A stretch of 64,000 nucleotides of DNA, taken from NCBI GenBank assembly GCA_003598015.1, contig QZKE01000066.1:1-64000 (forward strand), given 5' to 3'. Source of the DNA: Actinomycetota bacterium. Its GTDB lineage: Bacteria > Actinomycetota > Geothermincolia > Geothermincolales > RBG-13-55-18. The notes under the pieces were generated by a model. That model saw only the letters and a program-made list of their open reading frames with translations, had not been told where the DNA came from and searched no databases. Positions 5,727-20,409 of this stretch are shown here, piece by piece; within the stretch, counting starts at the first letter, position 1, and the number at the start of each line of letters is the position of its first letter. The position numbers and the translations under genes were made by a program.

Positions 5727-8468
5727 GTGGAAATGATGGAGCAAGTTCATCTGAATATAGACGGTAAAGACATCTTGACCACTTCCGATCGCACCATCCT
5801 TGAGGCGGCACGGGAGAACGGCATCCGCATCCCCAGCCTCTGCAATGAACAGCGCATGGAGCCCTATGGGGCATGCCGCATCTGCCTGGTAGAGGTGGAG
5901 GGGGCGAGGGGTCTTCTGCCGGCCTGCTACACCACGGTCACCGATGGTATGGTGGTGCATACCGCCACCGAGGAGCTGATAAGGATCAGGCGGACGATCC
6001 TCGAGCTCATCCTCTCCGACCATCCCAAGGACTGTATGACCTGCGAGAGTACGGGCAGTTGCGAACTTCAGGACCTGGCCTACGAATACGGCGTGAAGGA
6101 CGCGCGCTTTCGGGGCGAGGAACACCATTACGAGGTGCTCGCCGATAATCCCCTTATCGAACGAGATTACGATAAGTGCATACTCTGTGGCCGCTGCATC
6201 CGCATCTGCCGCGAGGTACAGGGAGTAGGGGTCTACGACTTCGTCAACCGGGGTTTCGATTCCGTCCCCGGCATACCCTACGACAAGCCCATGATGGAAT
6301 CGCCCTGCGAGTTCTGCGGGCAGTGCGTATCCACCTGTCCCACTGGAGCCATCACCTCCATCCCATCCAAAGGAAAAGGCAGGTCGTGGCAGGTCGAGAA
6401 GGTCAGGACAACCTGTGCGTATTGCGGTTGTGGTTGCCAACTCGACCTGCATGTTCGTGAAGGAGAGATCGTCGAGGTATCTTCTCCGCTCATGGTGGGG
6501 CCGGGGCAGGGCAACCTCTGCGTAAAAGGACGCTACGGCTATTCCTTCGTGCAGCATGAGGATCGCCTGACCACGCCCCTGGTGAGGAAGGGCGGGGATC
6601 TGGTTCCGGCCGCATGGGAGGAGGCCCTGGGAATGGTCGCCAATCATATCAGGGAGGCCATGGACGACGAGGGCCCGGACAGCGTCGCCTTCCTGTCCTC
6701 GGCGAGGTGCACAAACGAGGAAAACTACCTGCTCATGAAACTGGCACGCGCGGTGGTCGGCACCAATAACGTCGACCACTGCGCCCGGTTATGACACAGC
6801 TCCACAGTCGCCGGTCTGGCGAAAGCATTCGGGAGCGGGGCCATGACCAACTCCATCGATGACCTGGAGAAAGCGGGATGCATCCTGGTGATCGGATCCA
6901 ACACCACCGAGGGACATCCCATCATCGGTTTGCGCATAAAGCAGGCAGTGATGCAGAACGAATGCAAGTTAATCGTGGCGGAGCCCCGCCACATCCGTCT
7001 CTGTTATTACGCCGACCAATGGCTGCAGCAGAGGCCTGGAAGCGATGTGGCCCTGCTCAACGGCATGATGAACGTGATCCTGGCGGAAGGCCTGGCGGAT
7101 GAGGAGTTCATCCGGGAGCGCACCGAGGGATTCGAGGAGTTCAAGAAGGTAGTGGAGGAGTACGCTCCGGAACGGGCGTCCGAGATATGCGGCGTAGAAG
7201 CGGACGAGATCAGGCGCGCCGCGCGGACTTTCGCCGGGGCGGAGAGAGCGGCCATCGTCTACGCCATGGGCATCACCCAACATACTACGGGGGTGGATAA
7301 CGTCCTCTCCCTGGCCAACCTGGCCATGCTCACGGGCAACCTGGGCATGGAGGGGACGGGGGTCAATCCGCTGCGCGGGCAGAACAACGTACAGGGGGCC
7401 TGCGACATGGGTGGACTGCCCAACGTCTTCACCGGCTACCAGGCCGTAGCGGATGCAAAGACAAGGGACAAGTTCGAGACGGCATGGGGAGTCGATTATC
7501 TCTCCGGCAATCCGGGGTTGACTCTCATGGAGATGATGGACGGCGCCCACGCGGGGGACATCAAGGTGCTCTATATCATGGGGGAGAACCCGGTGATCTC
7601 TGACCCGGACGTCGAACACCTGAAGGAGGCACTGGAGAGGGTCGACTTCCTGGTGGTCCAGGATATCTTTCTCACCGAGACGGCACGCTACGCAGACGTG
7701 GTCCTTCCCGCCGTATCCTTCGCGGAGAAGGAAGGAACGTTTACCAATACGGACCGCCGCGTGCAGAGGGTGCGCAAGGCGGTTGAACCCCCGGGAGAGG
7801 CCCGTGACGACCTGTGGATAATCGCCCAGGTCTCATCCAGGTTGGGCTACGACATGGGCGATACCCCGGCGCCGCGGATCATGGAGGAGATAGCCTCGCT
7901 TACTCCCTCCTACGGCGGTATATCCTACGCGAGACTGGAGGAGGAGGGTGAGCTGAGATGGCCTTGCCCCAGTGCGGACCATCCCGGCACCCCCATCCTC
8001 CATGTGGGCAAGATCACCCGGGGTAAGGGCCTTTTCAGCCCGGTAGAATACAGGCCGCCGGCCGAACTGCCCGATGAAGAATATCCGCTCGTGATGACCA
8101 CGGGCAGGTTGCTCGCCCACTACCATACCGGTACCATGACCCGCCGCGTGAAAGCCCTTGACGAGCTGGTGCCGCGCAACCAGGTATGGGTTAATCCCGG
8201 CGACGCCGAGAAGCTGGGAGTGGGGAACGGTCAGGAGGTCGCACTACAGTCGCGCCGTGGTTCCATCAGGCTGGAAGCCAAGGTCACGGATAAGGTAGGG
8301 GAAGGAGTTGTCTTCGTGCCCTTCCATTTCGGGGAGTCACCCGCCAACGCTCTGACCAATCCGGCGCTGGACCCGGTGGCGAAGATCCCGGAGTTCAAAG
8401 TCGCCGCGGTACGCATCCTGACGGGTGAGTCCATGGCTGGCATCAACTATAGCACCAGCGTCACGTGA
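5727..8468 (+). CDS. fdhA: Selenocysteine-containing formate dehydrogenase alpha subunit (UGA 6792-6794 read as Sec)
   Basis: ORFs 5727-6794 and 6843-8468 share one frame; sequence across the UGA reads [30 protein letters not shown], matching the FdhF active-site context; N-terminal [2Fe-2S]/[4Fe-4S] domain and C-terminal molybdopterin domain. Confidence 0.93.
6795..6822 (+). promoter_or_regulatory. Bacterial SECIS-like hairpin downstream of the UGA
   Basis: TCGCC-GGTCT-GGCGA (6808-6822): 5-bp perfect stem, GGUCU loop starting 18 nt after the UGA. Confidence 0.85.
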
Positions 8469-8633
8469 TGGCGGACGGATCGGCGTGACGGCCGGTTTTT
8501 TGCTGACCACGCGATGTTTCGATGGTAGAATAGTAACGGACTGGGGCGAGAGGAATTGTCGGAAAGACTTTGCCGGAAGGGTTTGGTCCCTGACAGGGGC
8601 CGTAGCAGATCGTAGAAACGGGAGAGATGTTCT

Positions 8634-10142
8634 ATGAATCTATACCAGAATCTCGTGAAGACGGCGGAGAGTAATCCCGATGCCACGGCCCTCTATTTCG
8701 GCCATGACACCATATCCTACGGGGAGCTTCTCGCGCGCACAAACCGCCTGGCCAACGGCCTGCGCGGCCTGGGGCTGGACGAGAACTCCAAGGCGGCCAT
8801 ACTGCTGCGCAACGTGCCCGAATTCGTCATCTCGTACTATGCCGTGCTCTCCCTCGGGGCGACGGTAGTCCCCCTCTGCTATATGTGCCTGGCGGAGGAG
8901 GTGGAGAAGATTGTCTGCGACTCCATGGTCGAGACGCTCATCACCAACTTCGAGTTCGACGACCTCGTGAAGGAACTGCAGAACTCCATGTGCTCCCAGA
9001 TTCACCGCTACATCGTCAAGGATGCGCCGGAACTCGAGGGGGTTATCCAGTACGAGAAGCTGGTCGAGGGACAGCCCGACACTTGCGATGCCGCGGAGCG
9101 GGCCGAGGACGACGTGGCGGTCATCCTCTACGCACCGACATCGTCCAAGGTGGTAAGAGGGTGCATGCTCACCCACAGCAACCTCGACTGGAACACTGAG
9201 GCGATGACCAGGGAGTGTTCCCTGTCCCCGCAGGACGTGATCATGGCGGTATTGCCTTTTTTCGCGGTTTACGGGCAGAGCTGTGTCATGAACTCCGCCG
9301 TTAAAGCCGGCGCGAGCCTGGTGCTGCAGGAGTCCTTCATCCCCGGAGAGGTGCTCAAAGCACTGCAACACGAACAGGTGACCGTGTTTTTCGGCGTGCC
9401 CACGATGTTCGTCTATATCCTCAACCATCCGCTGATCTACCAGTACGACCTGGGGTCGGTGCGTCTGTGGTTCACCGGGGGAGCGCCCTTCCCGCGCGAG
9501 GTCATGGACCGCTGGAACAACGAGCTGGGATCGCGGATATTCGAGGGCTACGGCCTCACCGAAGCCGCGCCCCTGGTCGCCATGCAGCCCCTGGATGGTC
9601 CTTACAAGATCGGTTCCATAGGGGTACCCCCCGAGGGTCTCGAGGTGAAGGCCATCGATGAGGAGGGCAAGGAGCTGGAGCACGGCGATGTCGGGGAACT
9701 GATCGTCAAGGGGCCCAACGTCATGAAGGGGTATTACAACAAGCCGGAGGAGACGGATAAGGTCCTGAAGGACGGCTGGCTCTACACCGGAGACATGGTC
9801 TATATCGACGAGGACGGCTATATATTCATCGTGGGACGCAAGAAGGATCTCATCATCCGGGGCGGCTTCAACATCTATCCCCGGGAGATAGAGGAGGTCC
9901 TGGTCTCCCATCCTCTCATCTCGGAAGCGGCTGTAGTAGGTATACCCAATAAATATCTGGGTGAGGAAGTCAAGGCATACGTCAAGCAGAAACCGGGCTC
10001 CAACCTCACCGAGGAGCAGGTCCTGGAATTCTGCGAGGAGCACCTGCCGTACTACAAAACGCCCAAGTTCATCGTCTTCGTACGCTCCTTTAAAAAAGAC
10101 CCCTCGGGACAGATCCTCAAGGATCTCATAGAGGAAGCCTAG
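8634..10142 (+). CDS. Acyl-CoA synthetase / AMP-dependent ligase
   Basis: Weak AMP-binding P-loop (YAPTSSKVVRGCMLTHSN), EGYGLTEAAP, YTGDMVYIDEDGYIFIVGRKKDLIIRGGFNIYP. Confidence 0.92.
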   Translation: MNLYQNLVKTAESNPDATALYFGHDTISYGELLARTNRLANGLRGLGLDENSKAAILLRNVPEFVISYYAVLSLGATVVPLCYMCLAEEVEKIVCDSMVETLITNFEFDDLVKELQNSMCSQIHRYIVKDAPELEGVIQYEKLVEGQPDTCDAAERAEDDVAVILYAPTSSKVVRGCMLTHSNLDWNTEAMTRECSLSPQDVIMAVLPFFAVYGQSCVMNSAVKAGASLVLQESFIPGEVLKALQHEQVTVFFGVPTMFVYILNHPLIYQYDLGSVRLWFTGGAPFPREVMDRWNNELGSRIFEGYGLTEAAPLVAMQPLDGPYKIGSIGVPPEGLEVKAIDEEGKELEHGDVGELIVKGPNVMKGYYNKPEETDKVLKDGWLYTGDMVYIDEDGYIFIVGRKKDLIIRGGFNIYPREIEEVLVSHPLISEAAVVGIPNKYLGEEVKAYVKQKPGSNLTEEQVLEFCEEHLPYYKTPKFIVFVRSFKKDPSGQILKDLIEEA

Positions 10143-10207
10143 GGTTCCCGAGCCCGGGGGTAAGTGCTTTCCCGGCCCGGGCTAGCCGAGTCGTCTGCGA
10201 CGAGGCG

Positions 10208-10242
10208 TATTGCGAGGAGTCCGCGACGAAGCAACCTCGATA
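10208..10242. repeat. Dispersed motif, TATTGCGAGGAGTCCGCGACGAAGCAACCTCGAT
   Basis: Degenerate inverted copy of the motif at 10611-10645. Confidence 0.6.
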
Positions 10243-10360
10243 GTGCATCACGCATCTCTTTGTAGAGTGCGGCCGGGATGTCCTCGCTCCTCACTCGCAG
10301 TGCAGTATATCCAGGGCGAATCCTTCTTGCGTATATACTGCTCGCCAATGTCGCTTCGGA

Positions 10361-10792
10361 CCAACCCCCGGATCCCGGGTTGTGTTTATTGTGCAGGCTA
10401 TGCCCGGACGCGGTCTGCTGTCCTTGGCGGTTGGATACACTCGGTTCCCTCGTTTGGCCACCCCTTTTTCACCACTACCATAGCTCTCTATACAGCTGGT
10501 AACGGTCTCGCTCGGCGCGCAGCCGGCGGGATAGGAGGAAGAGGCCTCATTTTCATTTGCCCGCACTCGCTACGATACCTTCACCATCAACCGAAATGGG
10601 ATTATCAATCGAGATTGCCGTGTCGCTTCGCTCCTCGCAACACGGTTTTCCACTGCGCGGAAAACCTGGTCCTCCGGGCTGGCGGCAGTGCGGATGGAAG
10701 CTCGGGCCAACCCGCGGATCATGGGATGAGTTTTTTATACGGGCTATGCCCGGGCGTGGTTCTGCTGTCCCTGGCGGTTGGATACACCCGGC
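10361..10792. repeat. Degenerate direct repeat, about 85 bp (about 10361-10445 and 10708-10792)
   Basis: ccaacccccggatcccggg...ggctatgcccggacgcggtctgctgtccttggcggttggatacactcgg versus ccaacccgcggatcatggg...ggctatgcccgggcgtggttctgctgtccctggcggttggatacacccgg. Confidence 0.8.
10611..10645. repeat. Dispersed motif GAGATTGCCGTGTCGCTTCGCTCCTCGCAACACGG
   Basis: Inverted relative to 10208-10242. Confidence 0.65.
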
Positions 10793-10940
10793 CTACCCCC
10801 TTTTCTGCTCCTTGCACTTCACCTCCAGTAAGTTCGTTCTGCCGGACACACCCGACTTCATACTGCGAGGATGCGCAGATATGCTGCATATAGAGTAGAA
10901 TACGGGACGAAGCGTTACCACGAAAACGGGAGATAGCCTG

Positions 10941-11597
10941 TTGTCTTCCCTTATCGACCGGTTGCTGGACTGGCTTATGCCCCTCTTCTCCAACTGGGGC
11001 TACCTCATCGTATTCGCGGGCGTCTTTCTCGAGAGTATCTTCCTGACCGGGTGGATAGCGCCGGGTACGACCGTCATACTCATCGGGAGCTTTTTCGCGG
11101 CCCAGGGGGAGCTCAACATCCTCATGTTGTGGGTTACCTGCGTCGTGGCCGCCCTGCTGGGAGACAATGTCGGTTATTTCATCGGCAGGAAAATGGGCGC
11201 TGAGGCGGCGGAACGTTACAACAGCAAGTCGCGACTGCGCCGCGGCATGCTTAAGAGCCAGGGGTTCTTCCGGCGCTATGGCGGAATCACGGTGCTCTTC
11301 GGGCGCATGTTGTCGGGCGTGGACGCTTTTATACCCGTGACCGCCGGCATGAACGCCATGCCACACTGGAAATACATGGCCTATGACATTCCCGCCGCCA
11401 TGCTCTGGTCCGGCATCTTCTGCGCCTTGGGATATTTTTTCGGCGAGAATTGGCAGGCCATAGACGATGTCATCAGCTGGCTGGGATGGGGTGCACTGCT
11501 GCTGGCAGTCCTGGTCGTCGTCGTGATAGTGCTGGTGAAACGGCGCAAGAAGAGCAGGGAGTCGCTGATGGAGGATGGCGGCGGCATCAAGGATTGA
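10941..11597 (+). CDS. DedA family membrane protein
   Basis: VFLESIFLTGWIAPGTTVILIGSFFAAQG, GDNVGYFIGRKMG, GRMLSGVDAFIPVTAGMNAM. Confidence 0.93.
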   Translation: MSSLIDRLLDWLMPLFSNWGYLIVFAGVFLESIFLTGWIAPGTTVILIGSFFAAQGELNILMLWVTCVVAALLGDNVGYFIGRKMGAEAAERYNSKSRLRRGMLKSQGFFRRYGGITVLFGRMLSGVDAFIPVTAGMNAMPHWKYMAYDIPAAMLWSGIFCALGYFFGENWQAIDDVISWLGWGALLLAVLVVVVIVLVKRRKKSRESLMEDGGGIKD

Positions 11598-11873
11598 CCG
11601 GCAAGTGCCGGGTCAAGTTGCGGGGTTCACTCCTCTTGTCCGCTAGGTCTGATACGGCCAGGGAGGCGCCGGGGGGCGTAGCTTGCGGATCGGGCCGGAA
11701 TACCTCTATATCTTGCCGGAACGATCGAGCCGGGCCAGGAATGCCGAGACGCAAGTCAAACCGGCTGACCCCCGTTTTACTTCCCTTCCCGCCGTGTGCT
11801 ACTATCACGTTAATTTTATGCTGTCTTGACTGTTTAACTTGGGTAAACGCAGTAATTTTCGGGAGACAAGGCA

Positions 11874-12374
11874 TTGTCCGGAGGTTACGCTTTCAGCAAG
11901 AAGCTGTTACTATGCATCCTGCTATTCGCTTTCTGGGTGGCGCTCACCGCTACCCTGGCCCTCTACGACCTGGTGCTCGGGGCCATATGCTCGGCTTTCG
12001 TTGCGGTGATCACCGTCAGCCTGCTGGGACGCGCTCTCGATCCCCGCATAACCCCCATGGTGCTGCTCAGGCTGCCCGTGTTCATGGTGCGGCTGGTCTG
12101 GGAGATAATAAAGGCCAATTACGATGTGGCCAAGATCATTCTCAACCCCAGGCTGCCCATTGATCCCAGGATTGTGGAATACCGCACCTACCTGGCAGGC
12201 GATCTTCCCCGCACGGTCTTTTCGGATTCCATTACCCTCACGCCGGGCACGGTGACGGTGGACCTGGAGGAGGATCTGCTCAAGGTCCACTGCCTCTGCC
12301 CCTACCACGAGGAGGGGCTGTCCGGCCTGGAGGAGATGGTGGCGTGGCTGTTCGGGGAGAAGAGACATGGATGA
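11874..12374 (+). CDS. mrpE: Na+/H+ antiporter subunit E
   Basis: PVFMVRLVWEIIKANYDVAKIILNPRLPIDPRIVEYRT; position in Mrp operon. Confidence 0.92.
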   Translation: MSGGYAFSKKLLLCILLFAFWVALTATLALYDLVLGAICSAFVAVITVSLLGRALDPRITPMVLLRLPVFMVRLVWEIIKANYDVAKIILNPRLPIDPRIVEYRTYLAGDLPRTVFSDSITLTPGTVTVDLEEDLLKVHCLCPYHEEGLSGLEEMVAWLFGEKRHG

Positions 12375-12639
12375 CTTCCTCACCGTCATCGCCTTGATCA
12401 TCAGCCTCAACGCGGTGATCTGCCTCTACCGGGCCGTGATCGGACCGACCACCCAGGACCGCTTGCTGGGCGTGAATATCGTAGGCACCAAGACCCTGGT
12501 GGTAGTGATCCTGATCACTTTTATCCAAGCCGAGAGCTTCTTCCTGGACGTGGCCATCGTCTATGCCCTGCTGCTCTTCGTGGTGACCGTCGCCGTCTCG
12601 CGCTACCTGGAGGCCGAGGGCTGGGAGGAGATGAAGTAG
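12367..12639 (+). CDS. mrpF: Na+/H+ antiporter subunit F
   Basis: YRAVIGPTTQDRLLGVNIVGTKT; overlaps mrpE. Confidence 0.9.
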   Translation: MDDFLTVIALIISLNAVICLYRAVIGPTTQDRLLGVNIVGTKTLVVVILITFIQAESFFLDVAIVYALLLFVVTVAVSRYLEAEGWEEMK

Positions 12640-12640
12640 T

Positions 12641-12970
12641 ATGGCTCAGAACATCGTGGCGGGCGTCTTCTGCTGCATCGGCACCTTCTTCTTCCTGCTG
12701 GGCACCACGGGGCTGGTGCGCATGCCGGATGTCTTCACGCGGCTTCACCCGTCAACCAAGTGCGACACCCTGGGCGCGTGTTCTGTGATCATCGGCATGG
12801 CCGTGTACAGCGGCTGGTCCTGGGACCTCTTGAAACTCGTCCTCATCGCCTGTTTCGTGCTCCTCTCCAGCGCCACCTGCGGGCATGCCATCGGCCGCTC
12901 CGCGCTCAAGAGGGATATCGCATACTGGAGAAAAGACCGTAAGGAAGTGGAAGATGGGCACGGCGCTTAA
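12641..12970 (+). CDS. mrpG: Na+/H+ antiporter subunit G
   Basis: LLGTTGLVRMPDVFTRLHPSTKCDTLG. Confidence 0.92.
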   Translation: MAQNIVAGVFCCIGTFFFLLGTTGLVRMPDVFTRLHPSTKCDTLGACSVIIGMAVYSGWSWDLLKLVLIACFVLLSSATCGHAIGRSALKRDIAYWRKDRKEVEDGHGA

Positions 12971-13205
12971 CCTCACCTTCCTTGTACTCCTCGTGGCCAC
13001 GGCCCTCCTCGCGGTTTTCGCGCGTGACCTCCTCGCGGCGGTGATCATCTTCTCCGTGTACAGCCTGATCATGGCCCTGATGTGGCAGCGCCTGCAGGCG
13101 CCCGACCTGGCCCTCACCGAGGCCGCGGTAGGTGCTGGAGTGACCGCGGTCCTCTTCGTCGTGACCATCTTCAAGACGCGTCGCAGGGAGGAGGAAGAGG
13201 ATTGA
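12954..13205 (+). CDS. DUF4040 / MbhD-like antiporter subunit
   Basis: LLAAVIIFSVYSLIMALMWQRLQAPDLALTEAAVGAGVTAVLF; ORF-track start 12885 is probably too far upstream; exact start uncertain. Confidence 0.8.
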   Translation: MGTALNLTFLVLLVATALLAVFARDLLAAVIIFSVYSLIMALMWQRLQAPDLALTEAAVGAGVTAVLFVVTIFKTRRREEEED

Positions 13206-13954
13206 AGAGAGTAGTCTCCCTGCTGTTCATAGCCGCGCTGCTCGCCCTCCTCCTCTACGTGGTGGCCAACATGCCTCCCATGGGCGACCCGGAGAATCCC
13301 ACCAATTCCAGTGAGGTCATCAAGCGCTACCTGAACGAAGCGGAGGAGGAGACGCATTGCGAGAACGTGATCACCGGCATCATCCTCAATTACAGAGGCT
13401 ACGATACCATGGGGGAGGTGACGGTCATCTTCTGCGCCCTCGCTGCGGTTCTCGCGGTGCTGGGCAGGGAGAAGCGGGGGAAGATCTACGCCTACGCAGA
13501 CCGCTCCAGGGTGCCGTCCTCAGCTATCGTCAGGACCATGGTGGCCTTCCTGGTGCCCTTCATCATCCTCTTCTCCATCTATACCATCCTGCACGGCGAG
13601 ATCTCACCCGGAGGAGGTTTCCAGGGAGGAGCCATAGTCGGGGGCAGCATGATCATCTTCACCACCATATTCGGCCTCTACGAGTCATCACAGCGCATCC
13701 CGCAGAAATTGCGCGCTCCCCTGGAGGGTTCCGCCGTGATCACTTTCTTCATCGTAGGCATACTGGGCATGGCGGGAGGTGGGAATTTCCTCACCTATGC
13801 CTGGCCCAATATCGCTACGAACCTGCAGCCCTCCGTGGTGACCTGGCTGACCATCCTGGTGGAGATAGGCATAGGCCTCGGCGGTGCCATGGTGCTCATA
13901 TCCATCCTCTTCAGCATGATCCGGGAGGAGGAAGAGATTGCGGTTGCTCCATAA
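13202..13954 (+). CDS. mrpB: MrpB-like antiporter subunit with MbhE-like N-terminal segment
   Basis: HGEISPGGGFQGGAIVGGSMIIF; N-terminal ENVITGIILNYRGYDTMGEVTVIF; coordinates inferred within ORF 13082-13954. Confidence 0.85.
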   Translation: MKRVVSLLFIAALLALLLYVVANMPPMGDPENPTNSSEVIKRYLNEAEEETHCENVITGIILNYRGYDTMGEVTVIFCALAAVLAVLGREKRGKIYAYADRSRVPSSAIVRTMVAFLVPFIILFSIYTILHGEISPGGGFQGGAIVGGSMIIFTTIFGLYESSQRIPQKLRAPLEGSAVITFFIVGILGMAGGGNFLTYAWPNIATNLQPSVVTWLTILVEIGIGLGGAMVLISILFSMIREEEEIAVAP

Positions 13955-14330
13955 CTACCATTACATTGTGGCCATGCTTCTCTTCTGCATCGGGCTGTAT
14001 ACGGTAATCGTGCGCCGCAATATCATCAAGAAACTCATCGGCCTGAACATCATGGAGACATCGGTATTCCTTTTCTATATATCGCTGGGATACCTGGAAG
14101 GAGGCATCGCTCCCATACGTGTCGGTGGAGCGGATCCCTCCCGCATGGTAAACCCCATACCGCAGGCCCTCATCCTCACGGGCATCGTGGTGGCGGTGAG
14201 CGTGACCGCCCTGGCCCTTGCCCTGGTCATCCTCCTCTACCGCCAGTACGGCACCCTGGACGTGGACCGCCTCTTCCGCGACGAGGAAGTGGAGGAGGAA
14301 ACGGCGGAGGAGAAGGAGGGCACCGCGTAG
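13938..14330 (+). CDS. mrpC: Na+/H+ antiporter subunit C (NuoK-like)
   Basis: IGLYTVIVRRNIIKKLIGLNIMETSVFLFYIS, NPIPQALILTGIVVAVSVTALALALVI. Confidence 0.93.
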   Translation: MRLLHNYHYIVAMLLFCIGLYTVIVRRNIIKKLIGLNIMETSVFLFYISLGYLEGGIAPIRVGGADPSRMVNPIPQALILTGIVVAVSVTALALALVILLYRQYGTLDVDRLFRDEEVEEETAEEKEGTA

Positions 14331-15815
14331 ATGGGCGCCTATCGCCATTTCCCCATCCTCATGATCACCATTCCTTTGTTATGCGCGGTGCTCATGCCCT
14401 TCCTGGGCTACCTGAGGCAGAAGTGGGTGGCCTGGGCGGCCCTGATCCCGCTGGCCTCCTCCACCATCCTGGGCTTCCTGCTCATCGGCAAAGTCCCACC
14501 CGACGGGTATATCAGCTATCATCTGGGCAACTGGGCGCCTCCCTGGGGGATAGAGGTACGCGTGGATTTCATGGGGCTCTTCCTCATGCTGGTGGTATGC
14601 TGTATCAGCTTCCTGGCCCTCGTCTTCTCCCGGCGCTATATAGAGAGGGAGGTCTCCGGGGGGCGCCTGACCGCCTACTACGTGCTCTTCCTGCTCATGT
14701 CCGGGGCTATGCTCGGTTTCGTGGCCACCGGGGATATCTTCAACCTCTTCGTGTTCATGGAGATCCTGGCGCTGTCCTCCTACGCGCTGGTGGCTATCAC
14801 CGGAAACCGCAACGCCGTGCGCGCCGCCTTCAAGTACGTACTCATGGGCGCACCTTCCTCTATTATGGTGCTGCTGGCCATCGGGTTTCTCTACTCAGCC
14901 ACCGGGACATTGAACATGGCCGACCTCGCGGGACGTATAGCGGAGTCGGGCTACAGCGAGGTGCTTATCGTATCCTTTATCCTCTTCGTCATCGGATTCG
15001 GAGTGAAGGCGGCCCTCTTTCCCCTGCATATGTGGCTTCCGGATGCCCATTCCATCGCGCCCTCACCCATAAGCGCGCTCCTCTCCGGCCTGCTGGTGGA
15101 GGTGGGCGCCTTCGCCATCCTGAGGATAACCTTTTCCGTCTTCACCACGTCCGCGGATAATCTCATGGCGGGAACCCTGGATGCCGTAAGCATATTTGCG
15201 GCCGCGGCGGTGCTTTACGGGGGGATCATGGCCATCATGCAGAAGGACCTAAAGATGATGATCGCCTATTCGACCGTCAGCCATATCGGCTATATCTTCC
15301 TGGGTATAACGGCGTTTACCAGGGAGGGCCTGGCGGGCGCCATGTACCACATGCTCGACCATGGTCTGGCCAAGGCCTGCCTCTTCCTCTGCGCGGGGTG
15401 CTTCATCTACATGAAGGGATACCGGCGCATAGACGAGCTCAAGGGAGCCTGGCGCCAGATGCCCTGGACCTGCTTCGCTTTCGCCCTGGCCTCCATATCC
15501 GTTATCGGCATCCCTCCCACAGCCGGTTTTATCAGCAAGTTCTACCTCATCTACGGGAACTTCACCTCGCAGAGGTGGCCCTACGCGCTGGTGCTCCTGG
15601 TAGGGGCGATACTGGCTGCGGTATACTGCTTCCGTGTGATCTATTACATGTTCTTCCAGCCTGGGAAGGAGGGGGCCTGGGAGGAGAACACCAGGGACGC
15701 CGCTCCCTCCATGCTAACGCCCATCTGGATCCTCTCCCTGGGCACGCTTTTCTTCGGGGTGTTCTCGGGTCTTATAATCGATTCGCTGCTCAAGGCGGCG
15801 CAGTATCTGTTGTGA
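14331..15815 (+). CDS. mrpD: Na+/H+ antiporter subunit D (NuoN/M-like)
   Basis: FGVKAALFPLHMWLPDAHSIAPSPISALLSGLLVEVGAF. Confidence 0.93.
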   Translation: MGAYRHFPILMITIPLLCAVLMPFLGYLRQKWVAWAALIPLASSTILGFLLIGKVPPDGYISYHLGNWAPPWGIEVRVDFMGLFLMLVVCCISFLALVFSRRYIEREVSGGRLTAYYVLFLLMSGAMLGFVATGDIFNLFVFMEILALSSYALVAITGNRNAVRAAFKYVLMGAPSSIMVLLAIGFLYSATGTLNMADLAGRIAESGYSEVLIVSFILFVIGFGVKAALFPLHMWLPDAHSIAPSPISALLSGLLVEVGAFAILRITFSVFTTSADNLMAGTLDAVSIFAAAAVLYGGIMAIMQKDLKMMIAYSTVSHIGYIFLGITAFTREGLAGAMYHMLDHGLAKACLFLCAGCFIYMKGYRRIDELKGAWRQMPWTCFAFALASISVIGIPPTAGFISKFYLIYGNFTSQRWPYALVLLVGAILAAVYCFRVIYYMFFQPGKEGAWEENTRDAAPSMLTPIWILSLGTLFFGVFSGLIIDSLLKAAQYLL

Positions 15816-15930
15816 AACGAAGGGGGTAGTCGATGCCACGGGACAGCACATCGCCCTTCTCGGGTCTTATAATCGATTCGCTGCTCAAGGCGGCGCAGTA
15901 TCTGTTGTGAAACGAAGGGGGTAGTCGATG
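15762..15930. repeat. 74-bp perfect direct repeat (15762-15835, 15857-15930), 95-bp period, spanning the mrpD stop and next start
   Basis: ttctcgggtcttataatcgattcgctgctcaaggcggcgcagtatctgttgtgaaacgaagggggtagtcgatg occurs twice. Confidence 0.98.
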
Positions 15931-17739
15931 TCGGATAACAGCACATTCTCCGTAATACCGCTTATAGCGATGCTGCTTCCCTGGGTGTCGCTGGTGGTGA
16001 TCGTGGCCATGCCCAAGAAGGCGAAGCAGCTGCGATTATGGCTGTGCTTCCTGGGGACGGTGGCCACCTTCGGGGTGGTACTGTCCCTGTTGCCGGGCAT
16101 CCTGGACGGCAATACCTATACCATCAAGCTGGCCAGCGTGGTACAGGGGCTGGAGATGCGCCTCAGCGTGGATACGCTGGGCTATTATTTCTCGCTCATC
16201 CTGTCCTTTATCTGGATGCTGACCACCCTCTACTCTATCTCCTATATCGACCATAAAGAGAACCGCTTTTTCGCCTTCATGGCCTTGTGCGAGTCTTTCC
16301 TGCTGGGTTGCGCGTTCTCCGCCAACATGTTCACTTACTTCATCTTCTACGAGATGATGACCTTCGGATCCTACCCCCTGATTATCCACGAGGAGACGGC
16401 CATGGCGCGCCGGGCCGGTTACAAGTACCTCGTGTACGCCATCGCGGCCGGCACTGTCCTCTTCTTCGCCATCATCGCTCATTATTTCTGGGGGGATGGC
16501 CAGCTGGGATTCGGGCAGTACGGCGTTTTGAGCCTGGAGTTCGCGGGACGTGCCGCTCTGACCACCATCTTCTTCGCCTACCTGGCCGGATTCGGGGTGA
16601 AGGCGGCCATCATGCCCCTGCACGGGTGGGTGCCCGACGCCCATCCGGCGGCGCCCTCCCCGGCCAGCGCGCTGCTCTCCGGGGTTATCCTGAAGGCGGG
16701 TGCCTTCGGCATCGTCCGCGTGGTCTTCAACGTCTTCGGGGTGGAGCTCATGCGGGAGCTGAACGTGTTCATCGTCATGGCCGTTCTGGCCTGCATCACC
16801 ATCGTGGTGGCCTCCGTCTTCGCCCTCACCCAGGACAACCTGAAACGCCGGCTGGCCTACTCGAGCATCGGGCAGGTCTCCTATATCATCCTGGGGCTGG
16901 CCATGCTGGCCCAGGATGGCGCCCTGGGCGGCGTCATGCACATCACCCACCATGCCCTGATGAAGGGCTGCCTCTTCCTCTGCGCCGGGGTGATCCTGGT
17001 AAAGACCGGCAAAAAGAACATCAGCGAGATGAAGGGGGTTGGATACAAACTACCGATAACCATGATCTGCTTCTCCATCTGCGCCCTGGCCATGATGGGG
17101 ACGCCGCCGTCGGTGGGATTCATCACCAAGTGGCTGTTGGGCAGCGGCTCCCTGGAGGCGGGATTACCCGTCTATATCGTAGTGCTGCTGGTGAGCGCCC
17201 TGCTCAACGCGGCCTATTTCCTGCCCATTATCTATATCGCGTTCTTCCGCTGGGAGGGCGACGATGAGGAGGGGCACGGGGATACCCACCGTCCCAAGCT
17301 GGTGTTCGGCAAGGAGGCGGACCACAAGCTGGTGGTACCCCTGGTCATCCTGTCAGCCCTGGTGATCATCGTAGGTATATGGGTGACCGTCCCCGGCTTT
17401 CCGTATTCACTGGTCAACCCCGCCGTTGAGGATATCTACGGCAGCAATGTCTCGGGTCATGTCTACGAAGACGAGAACGGAAACGGTATCTACGACGATG
17501 ACGATCCGGGCGTGGCGGGAGTGACGGTCCAGCTGAGCCTGGATGGAGAGGTAGTGGCGAGCACCGATAGCGATGAGACGGGCTTGTACGAATTCGAGAA
17601 GATCGAGGAGGGAACGTACGATATCGAGGTTATCACCGGGGCGGGGATGTCCGCCGTCGGCTCCACGCTGATCAGGGGGGTGAAGGTGACGTCCAACGAG
17701 GACGTAATCGTGGAAAGGCCCTTCCTGGTCAGTCCCTGA
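15928..17739 (+). CDS. Second MrpD-like antiporter subunit fused to a C-terminal SdrD-B/Cna-B-like beta-sandwich domain
   Basis: FGVKAAIMPLHGWVPDAHPAAPSPASALLSGVILK; C-terminus GSNVSGHVYEDENGNGIYDDDDPGVAGVTVQLSLDGEVVASTDSDETGLYEFEKIEEGTYDIEV. Confidence 0.9.
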   Translation: MSDNSTFSVIPLIAMLLPWVSLVVIVAMPKKAKQLRLWLCFLGTVATFGVVLSLLPGILDGNTYTIKLASVVQGLEMRLSVDTLGYYFSLILSFIWMLTTLYSISYIDHKENRFFAFMALCESFLLGCAFSANMFTYFIFYEMMTFGSYPLIIHEETAMARRAGYKYLVYAIAAGTVLFFAIIAHYFWGDGQLGFGQYGVLSLEFAGRAALTTIFFAYLAGFGVKAAIMPLHGWVPDAHPAAPSPASALLSGVILKAGAFGIVRVVFNVFGVELMRELNVFIVMAVLACITIVVASVFALTQDNLKRRLAYSSIGQVSYIILGLAMLAQDGALGGVMHITHHALMKGCLFLCAGVILVKTGKKNISEMKGVGYKLPITMICFSICALAMMGTPPSVGFITKWLLGSGSLEAGLPVYIVVLLVSALLNAAYFLPIIYIAFFRWEGDDEEGHGDTHRPKLVFGKEADHKLVVPLVILSALVIIVGIWVTVPGFPYSLVNPAVEDIYGSNVSGHVYEDENGNGIYDDDDPGVAGVTVQLSLDGEVVASTDSDETGLYEFEKIEEGTYDIEVITGAGMSAVGSTLIRGVKVTSNEDVIVERPFLVSP

Positions 17740-17756
17740 CACGATGAGGTAGAGGG

Positions 17757-19904
17757 TTGCACGAGACGAAGGTAGCGATATTCGCATACTCCATCCTGCC
17801 CATCCTCGCCATGGCGCTGCCCGTGGCGGGAGCACTGCTGGCTGCGGTAGCGGGGGAGAAGCGGGCGCGCTTGCGCAACTGGGCCGCGGTGGTCGCCACC
17901 GGGGCGACGCTGCTCATGGCGGTGCTCATACTGGTGAAGGTGCTATCCGTCGGCGCGGTCTATTTCAACCTGGATATCATGCGCATCGGCACCAGCTACG
18001 TGTGCAACCTGGAGGTCGACGCCATCGGGGCGTTCTTCGTCTTCTTCACGGCGATCCTGTGGTTCGCCGCTTCCCTGCACGCTTTTCGCTACATGGATCA
18101 CGAACATAAGCGCACGCGCTTCTTCTTCTTCATGCTCCTCACCGAGACCGCCACCCTGGGGGTGTTCATGGTCCAGGACTACTTCAGCCTCTACCTGTTC
18201 TTCGAGGCCATGGGGCTGCTGGCCTATGTCCTGGTTATCCACTCCGAAACGGACAAGGCTCGCTCTGCGGCCGCCAAGTACATATGCATGACCGTGGTCG
18301 GAGGCCTGAGCCTCATCGGGGGCATCTTCCTCTACCTGGGCGCCGCGGGCACGATCGCTTTCAAACCCCTGGCCGATAGTGCCTGGCTCACGGGTTCCTT
18401 CAAAGTTGTGGCCCTGATCTGCCTCATCGCAGGCTTCGGCGTGAAAGCGGGCATGGTGCCCCTGCATATCTGGCTCCCCGACGCTCATCCCGCCGCGCCC
18501 TCCCCCGCAAGTGCCCTCCTCTCCGGGGTGATGATCAAGGCGGGCGCATACGGAATCCTGAGAACCGCGCTCACCTTCTTCCAGCAGCCGCCGGTCCATG
18601 CCGCGGAAGCCGAGGTAGTCAGCGGCGCTCACGCCGCGGAGGGGGCGGTGCACGCCGCGTCCGGAATCGCGGGCGACGTGCGCATGCTGGGATTTGCCAT
18701 AATATGGATGGCAGTGGCCACCATGTTCATCGGCATGTTGCTGGCCCTGGTGCAGAACGATATCAAGCGCACCCTGGCCTATTCGAGCGTCAGCCAGATG
18801 GGGTATATCCTCTTCGGCGTCGGGTGCATGACTTACCTGGGGGCGGAAGGGGCCATGGGCATGGGCGGCAGCCTCTACCACATCATCAACCACGCTTTCT
18901 TCAAGGGATGTTTCTTCCTCGCCGCGGGCTCCATTCTCTTCTGCGCCCACGAACTGGATATGTACAAACTGGGTGGCCTGTGGAGACGTATGCCCCTGAC
19001 CACCATATTCTGGTGCATCGCTGCGCTGGGCATCATGGGTATCCCTTTCCTGAACGGCTTCGTGTCTAAGACCCTCCTGCATCATGCCATCGTCGAATCG
19101 CACGAGTTCGCCGTGGGGGCCAACCTGGCCACGGCCGGATGGGTGAAGATGGCAGAGATCATGTTCATCATAACCAGTGGCGGCACCATCGGATATATCA
19201 CCAAGATGACCTACTACACGTTCTTCCGCGGGCCGGACCGGGAGCACGCGCATCATATCGAGCACGTAAAGGAAGCGCCCGCGTGGATGCTCGCAGGCAC
19301 CGGACTACTGGCCGCCGGGGTTTTGTTCAATGGCCTTTTCCCCGGCGTGCTCCTGAGCAAGCTTATCGGCCCGACGGTGCAGACGGTGCCGGGCTTCGAT
19401 CCCCATATGGCTGCCCACGTAGCGGAGGTCCCCATATTCATTTGGGGGAACTTCAAGGAGATCCTCGTCCCCCTGGCCATCGGTATCTCCGTCTTTGTCC
19501 TGGGGGCCTGGCCCGACCTTTTCGGAAGAAGGCGGCGGGGTCCGGATATCTTCCATATCCGGCTCCCGCGCTGGCTGGGGGTGGACTACTGGTACGTGCG
19601 GGGAGCCAGAGACTCGCTGGCGATACTCTTTGCCGGGCAGAGGACCTATGGGCCCATCAAAATGCGCGTTATATCCATGCTGAAACAGGGGGCGTACGGG
19701 ACGGTTCACACGGTCCGGGATGTGATCTACCCGGCGCTCACGGAGAAGCCCTACGAGCGGGTCAAGGAAGGTGTGATCAGGCTGGCCGGGGATACTCGCC
19801 GCAGGCTGTTGCCCAGGATAAGAGAGTACCAGGGAGATCTCGCCGTCGGAGCCCTGGTTATCGCGGTATCACTCACCATCTTCCTTATCATGAGGTTGCT
19901 GTGA
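17757..19904 (+). CDS. MrpA/MrpD-type large antiporter subunit with C-terminal extension
   Basis: FGVKAGMVPLHIWLPDAHPAAPSPASALLSGVMIKAGAYG; TTG start. Confidence 0.88.
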   Translation: MHETKVAIFAYSILPILAMALPVAGALLAAVAGEKRARLRNWAAVVATGATLLMAVLILVKVLSVGAVYFNLDIMRIGTSYVCNLEVDAIGAFFVFFTAILWFAASLHAFRYMDHEHKRTRFFFFMLLTETATLGVFMVQDYFSLYLFFEAMGLLAYVLVIHSETDKARSAAAKYICMTVVGGLSLIGGIFLYLGAAGTIAFKPLADSAWLTGSFKVVALICLIAGFGVKAGMVPLHIWLPDAHPAAPSPASALLSGVMIKAGAYGILRTALTFFQQPPVHAAEAEVVSGAHAAEGAVHAASGIAGDVRMLGFAIIWMAVATMFIGMLLALVQNDIKRTLAYSSVSQMGYILFGVGCMTYLGAEGAMGMGGSLYHIINHAFFKGCFFLAAGSILFCAHELDMYKLGGLWRRMPLTTIFWCIAALGIMGIPFLNGFVSKTLLHHAIVESHEFAVGANLATAGWVKMAEIMFIITSGGTIGYITKMTYYTFFRGPDREHAHHIEHVKEAPAWMLAGTGLLAAGVLFNGLFPGVLLSKLIGPTVQTVPGFDPHMAAHVAEVPIFIWGNFKEILVPLAIGISVFVLGAWPDLFGRRRRGPDIFHIRLPRWLGVDYWYVRGARDSLAILFAGQRTYGPIKMRVISMLKQGAYGTVHTVRDVIYPALTEKPYERVKEGVIRLAGDTRRRLLPRIREYQGDLAVGALVIAVSLTIFLIMRLL

Positions 19905-19953: not shown

Positions 19954-20409
19954 ATGTATGAGACGAATCGGGAGTACGGATACGGGATGATGATACGGTT
20001 TGCTTTGCTGGTGGCCGAGTCCGGTGTGAGCAGGGACTTCTTCGCGGTCCTGGTAGCGGGGCTGGCCGGAATCGCGGTCCTCTTCTACGCCGCCGCTTCG
20101 GATCTCTTCGATCTCAAGCTCTTCAAGTTCGATCCCTACGCCTTCAGGCTCCCCAGGGAAGCCCGTGTCGAATACTGGTACACTAGGGCGGCGAAGAGGT
20201 TCGAGTCTTTCCTGGCCGATGGAGGCTGGAGCTACGCCAAGGCAAAAAAACAGGCAAGGGTGAGGGTGAAAAGGGACTGGCGCAGAATGCGCAAAGAAAC
20301 GCGCAGGATGTTGCCGGAAGCCGTCAAGCGGCTTAACCGCGATGTCGCGCTGGGCGCGCTGGCGATAGCCATCGTCCTGGTGGCCCTGTTGATCATAAGC
20401 CTGGTATAG
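19954..20409 (+). CDS. Hypothetical membrane protein resembling the C-terminal extension of the upstream subunit
   Basis: VEYWYTRAAKRF...RRMLPEAVKRLNRDVALGALAIAIVLVALLIISLV; two predicted TM segments. Confidence 0.7.
   Translation: MYETNREYGYGMMIRFALLVAESGVSRDFFAVLVAGLAGIAVLFYAAASDLFDLKLFKFDPYAFRLPREARVEYWYTRAAKRFESFLADGGWSYAKAKKQARVRVKRDWRRMRKETRRMLPEAVKRLNRDVALGALAIAIVLVALLIISLV

Follow-up and report, generated by a model that had tools for sequence, protein, structure and literature searches.

A single open reading frame in the window (the whole 64,000-nucleotide stretch of DNA analysed here) joins an Mrp-type antiporter subunit to a surface-protein domain. The ORF at 15928-17739 (+) is open for 603 codons with zero internal stops, and its product comprises an MrpD/NuoM-type subunit (residues ~1-504) followed by a single SdrD_B domain (~505-603). 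Pfam assigns Proton_antipo_M (PF00361) to residues 131-425 (E 1.4e-54, 185.8 bits against a curated cut-off of 21.5) and SdrD_B (PF17210) to residues 511-576 (E 3.1e-16, 60 bits against 29.7); the latter score is well above its cut-off, so the match is not a chance motif. Cell-wall adhesins are the usual setting of SdrD_B-type calcium-binding modules. Analysis confirms the fusion, with both Pfam domains in one frame and the same 603-residue protein in two further species; its parts are known, and the combination is conserved and restricted to one uncultured actinobacterial genus. The gene is divided as follows:

15928..17739, + strand: fused gene, mrpD2 with a C-terminal SdrD_B domain, 603 aa (ORF, Pfam, and alignment)
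15928..17439, + strand: antiporter part, residues 1-504, 14 TM helices, with conserved E142 (TM5), K225 (TM7), and K401 (TM12)
17440..17736, + strand: SdrD_B (B-domain, Ig-like beta-sandwich), residues 505-603 (Pfam, model, and PDB matches)
17470..17505, + strand: EF-hand-like Ca loop DENGNGIYDDDD, residues 515-526, with D515, N517, N519, D523, and D526 invariant in three species

The first-pass annotation had placed an SdrD-type domain at the end of the second MrpD-like protein, and much of that description stands: the peptide it quoted occurs verbatim in the ORF translation, the DENGNGIYDDDDPG loop is present, and the gene does lie between a first (14331-15815) and a third (17757-19904) MrpD-like gene. 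The domain start that it gave, 17441, is off the frame by one base, as residue G505 begins at base 17440; the domain thus covers 17440-17736, followed by the stop codon. Its interpretation is partly supported: the fusion, the SdrD_B identity, the Ca loop, and a junction free of error all hold up, a tether to the envelope has no positive support, and a Ca2+ sensor is supported by the intact Ca loop only.

The fused gene clusters with mrpE, F, G, B, and C in one operon, of which the other members are:

11874..14330, + strand: mrpE, mrpF, mrpG, mbhD-like, mbhE/mnhB, and mrpC, the small subunits of the same operon
14331..15815, + strand: mrpD1, the upstream antiporter subunit, 494 aa
17757..19904, + strand: mrpD3 (NuoL/HyfB-like), the next gene, 715 aa, starting 17 bases past the stop of the fused gene

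Unlike the Mrp operons of Anoxybacillus and Bacillus, this cluster (11874-19904) encodes MrpD/NuoL-like subunits in triplicate and has mbhD-like and mbhE/mnhB as split genes in place of the single long MrpA. The listed ORFs neighbouring 11874-19904 include no apparent hydrogenase or oxidoreductase subunits. The gene order, mrpE-F-G-mbhD-mnhB-C-D1-D2-D3 plus two small genes, is identical in the sister species G001, and a genome of the same family that lacks the domain (L047) has the same order, including the two trailing small genes. In the comparison of these two loci, the added domain is the sole difference in gene content. With the rest of the operon unaltered, the genus has cleanly gained a domain of its own at this locus.

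Both other species of the genus, found among 59 relatives searched and represented by independent assemblies, encode the full 603-residue fusion at 88% and 86% identity with no stop. In a scan of 84,980 species, one genome each, with a reach limited to close relatives, only those two carry the whole query. The junction reads ...PGFPYSL-(V/A)NP(A/V)VEDIYGS-(N/K/E)VSG... across the three species, with VEDIYGS invariant. Between species, the domain has a dN of 0.22-0.29 and a dS of 0.65-0.89 (NG86), giving a dN/dS of 0.24-0.43 against about 0.085 for the antiporter part, and it is 63-66% identical where the antiporter is ~91% identical. With dN well below dS, the domain is genuinely coding, and purifying selection acts on it, though more weakly than on the antiporter. 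The first-pass annotation had asked for reads to guard against a junction error; the same full-length fusion in diverged, independent assemblies, with an uninterrupted frame and mostly synonymous divergence, excludes a chimera or frameshift that fused two genes, for which we see practically no chance. Nothing was found in favour of such an artefact; a tandem duplication does lie just upstream, but outside the junction:

15762..15946, + strand: 95-bp tandem duplication that takes in the 3' end of mrpD1, the intergenic ribosome-binding region, and the opening bases of mrpD2

Its copies are 93% identical over 90 nt. The duplication is not seen in either sister species; it may be peculiar to this strain or have arisen in the assembly.

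Outside the genus, orthologues stop at ~500-506 aa, just past TM14; those of the same family, order, and class end (...PGFPYSLVSKVVGVIFP*) about 18 residues beyond that helix. None of the orthologues found outside the genus in 297 genomes across the phylum covers the domain. In a plasmid collection, the antiporter homologues are <60% identical, and all five matches listed stop by residue 520 of the query, short of the SdrD_B core. The relatives were also searched for the domain as a neighbouring gene, the observation that the first-pass annotation had named as refuting a fusion, and none encodes it: tblastn with the domain as query returned nothing credible in the unfused loci, where the next mrp gene follows directly, about 16 to 110 bases after the stop, which together rule out a separate downstream gene. 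On the sequences compared, the domain is restricted to the genus and would have joined MrpD2 in its ancestor. One genome of the same family (G014) has two mrpD2 orthologues on separate contigs (L037 and L017), both without SdrD_B.

The antiporter part was modelled by AlphaFold with 14 TM helices and a beta-hairpin at residues 63-81. It resembles the MrpD/MbhH/NuoM-type subunits of the Anoxybacillus and Bacillus Mrp complexes (6z16_D and 7qru_D) and of MBH (6cfw_H) in fold (TMt 0.78-0.86), in its 14 TM helices, in the TM5 Glu, TM7 Lys, and TM12 Lys, and in its mrp-operon location, while differing from them in the extra C-terminal SdrD_B domain. E142, K225, and K401 align with the key Glu/Lys residues of MbhH and do not vary across 20 orthologues; as these proton-path residues are intact, the MrpD2 subunit is probably active.

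Fourteen helices place the N- and C-termini on the same side of the membrane. In the protein from the window, 16 Lys/Arg residues lie on the odd loops, opposite the termini, versus 5 on the even loops of the N/C side; the means over the 20 orthologues are 14.6 and 7.9, respectively. The beta-hairpin, between TM2 and TM3, lies on the same side as the protein ends and corresponds to the element that, in Mrp and complex I, links such subunits at the periplasmic face (PMC7419157). From the positive-inside charge distribution and the hairpin landmark, the C-terminus, and hence the SdrD_B domain, is predicted to be outside the cell, in answer to the earlier question of which side the domain faces. 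A text search of the literature found no paper on the topology of the MrpD/NuoL C-terminus, so the orientation rests on the charge counts and the landmark.

The domain itself, modelled from a 47-sequence alignment, has a mean pLDDT of 95.8 (AlphaFold), and its best PDB matches are B domains: SdrD 10ps (E 2.5e-07), SdrD 4jdz (TMq 0.79), and UafA 3irp, in agreement with the sequence search. The Pfam score, the model, and these matches bear out both the SdrD_B identity and the beta-sandwich proposed in the first-pass annotation, and the Ig-like fold is predicted with high confidence. In the full-length AlphaFold model, placement of the domain is low-confidence, with a pLDDT of 31-76 per ten-residue block from residue 511 onward. 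Like the staphylococcal SdrD and UafA B domains (PF17210; 10ps, 4jdz, and 3irp), the domain has the B-domain fold (TMq 0.77-0.79) and the first Ca loop; unlike them, it occurs in single copy, lacks an adhesin A region and an LPxTG motif, and forms part of a multi-pass membrane protein. In all three species the loop, D515-x-N517-x-N519-G-x-x-D523-x-x-D526, keeps its five side-chain positions, and by virtue of this loop the domain may bind Ca2+. Taken on its own, this invariance is modest evidence because about half of the domain positions are invariant. In staphylococcal B domains, the role shown for Ca2+ is structural, conferring mechanical strength (PMC6232131). The net charge of the domain is -17 to -22 per 99 aa, versus a mean of -12.5 (SD 4.6) for the surface repeats; this is toward the acidic side yet inside the range of the repeats, and we do not claim a special proton-gathering surface.

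The domain probably derives from a repeat subtype found in the multi-repeat LPxTG cell-wall proteins that this family encodes, judging from the following comparisons. SdrD_B repeats occur in all 15 genomes of the family, and sortases in 4/4 genomes checked. In the loci read, the repeats belong to long multi-repeat proteins ending in LPATG, LPVTG, LPMTG, or LPRTG followed by a hydrophobic stretch and a basic tail. A tree built from 47 repeats unites the three MrpD2 domains in a single clade (100/100) and nests them, at 96/88, in a clade of 12 rows together with a repeat subtype of genomes G001, G003, G005, G009, G011, and G012. The unit boundaries of the MrpD2 domain and of the surface repeats are equal, from YGS... 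to ...FLN/FLV, indicating that one whole repeat was captured. The LPxTG multi-SdrD proteins (e.g., L141:3726-7898 and L142:7836-10274) provide the closest repeat subtype with these same boundaries, but differ from MrpD2 in that they have a hydrophobic, signal-like stretch at the N-terminus, contain many repeats, and carry an LPxTG-type anchor. The contig read from the window's own genome (L140) showed no repeats of this subtype. Divergently oriented pairs of LPxTG-type multi-SdrD_B proteins recur in the family:

L140:5264-7942 and 11823-14249
L141:3726-7898 and 9362-12103
L142:4500-6596 and 7836-10274

The data give good support to a recent event in which a surface-protein module was fused to an ion-translocating subunit related to complex I, at its outward end. 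The event can be dated to one genus, its source repeats are identifiable, and the unfused sister genera serve as natural controls, offering a direct route to asking whether exofacial add-ons change how Mrp assembles or transports ions. In the open-access literature searched, no paper pairs "SdrD B-like domain" with "antiporter", though the pairing may have been reported elsewhere.

The explanation that we favour, tentatively, is that the domain is a Ca2+-stabilised exofacial cap or contact surface on an Mrp-type (CPA3) cation/proton antiporter that stands alone. A single SdrD_B repeat would have been copied, in the ancestor of the genus, from a family of LPxTG cell-wall proteins onto the second MrpD-like subunit, at its outward C-terminus right behind TM14 and a short C-terminal helix. 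Beyond the membrane, the repeat would most likely fold into an acidic beta-sandwich stabilised by Ca2+; because it starts almost straight after the short helix, it would be held near the outer surface of the complex. We infer a structural role there, in subunit packing or non-covalent wall contact, apart from ion translocation. The low-confidence placement of the domain in the full-length model counts against this explanation, as does the presence of the fusion in only three species, all of one genus. This restriction, with every other orthologue found managing without the domain, suits the first of its rivals, a passenger captured by duplication and fusion and retained as harmless, with selection acting only to keep it folded and spare the antiporter. 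The relaxed evolution of the domain relative to the antiporter also fits a passenger; however, the domain is intact in three species despite a synonymous divergence of ~0.5-0.9 per site, and the five Ca-loop ligand positions and the junction are all invariant. We rate a passenger as less likely than a cap and as the foremost alternative to it.

Regulation by Ca2+ ranks next and is improbable. External Ca2+ acting on the domain would tune antiporter activity, ion exchange, or complex stability, and the sole support in this protein is the integrity of the EF-hand-like loop. B domains do toggle between a strong and a weak state depending on Ca2+ (PMC6232131), and the Mrp antiporter of Thermomicrobium roseum performs Ca2+/H+ antiport (PMC5703873), an analogy by which a Ca2+ link for this Mrp is possible. 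However, the Ca2+ role demonstrated in known B domains is the structural one, and the ligand check covered one of the three B-domain Ca sites (loop 1). The weakest of the rivals, and the least probable of the three, is the tether suggested in the first-pass annotation, in which the domain would bind wall polymers or LPxTG repeat proteins and so fix the complex in the envelope. Its predicted outside location and its kinship with the wall-anchored proteins of these sortase-encoding genomes would suit a tether, but the protein offers one domain with no spacer and almost no linker after TM14, and its C-terminus (...VERPFLVSP) has no LPxTG, hydrophobic stretch, or basic tail, ending instead in FLVSP. 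Sortase anchoring is thus ruled out for want of a motif, and covalent wall tethering is not supported.

Downstream of mrpD3, a 151-aa gene at 19954-20409 encodes a protein that shares 30% identity with the last 151 residues of MrpD3 (E 2e-11). It has no Pfam match and stays adjacent to mrpD3 in relatives.
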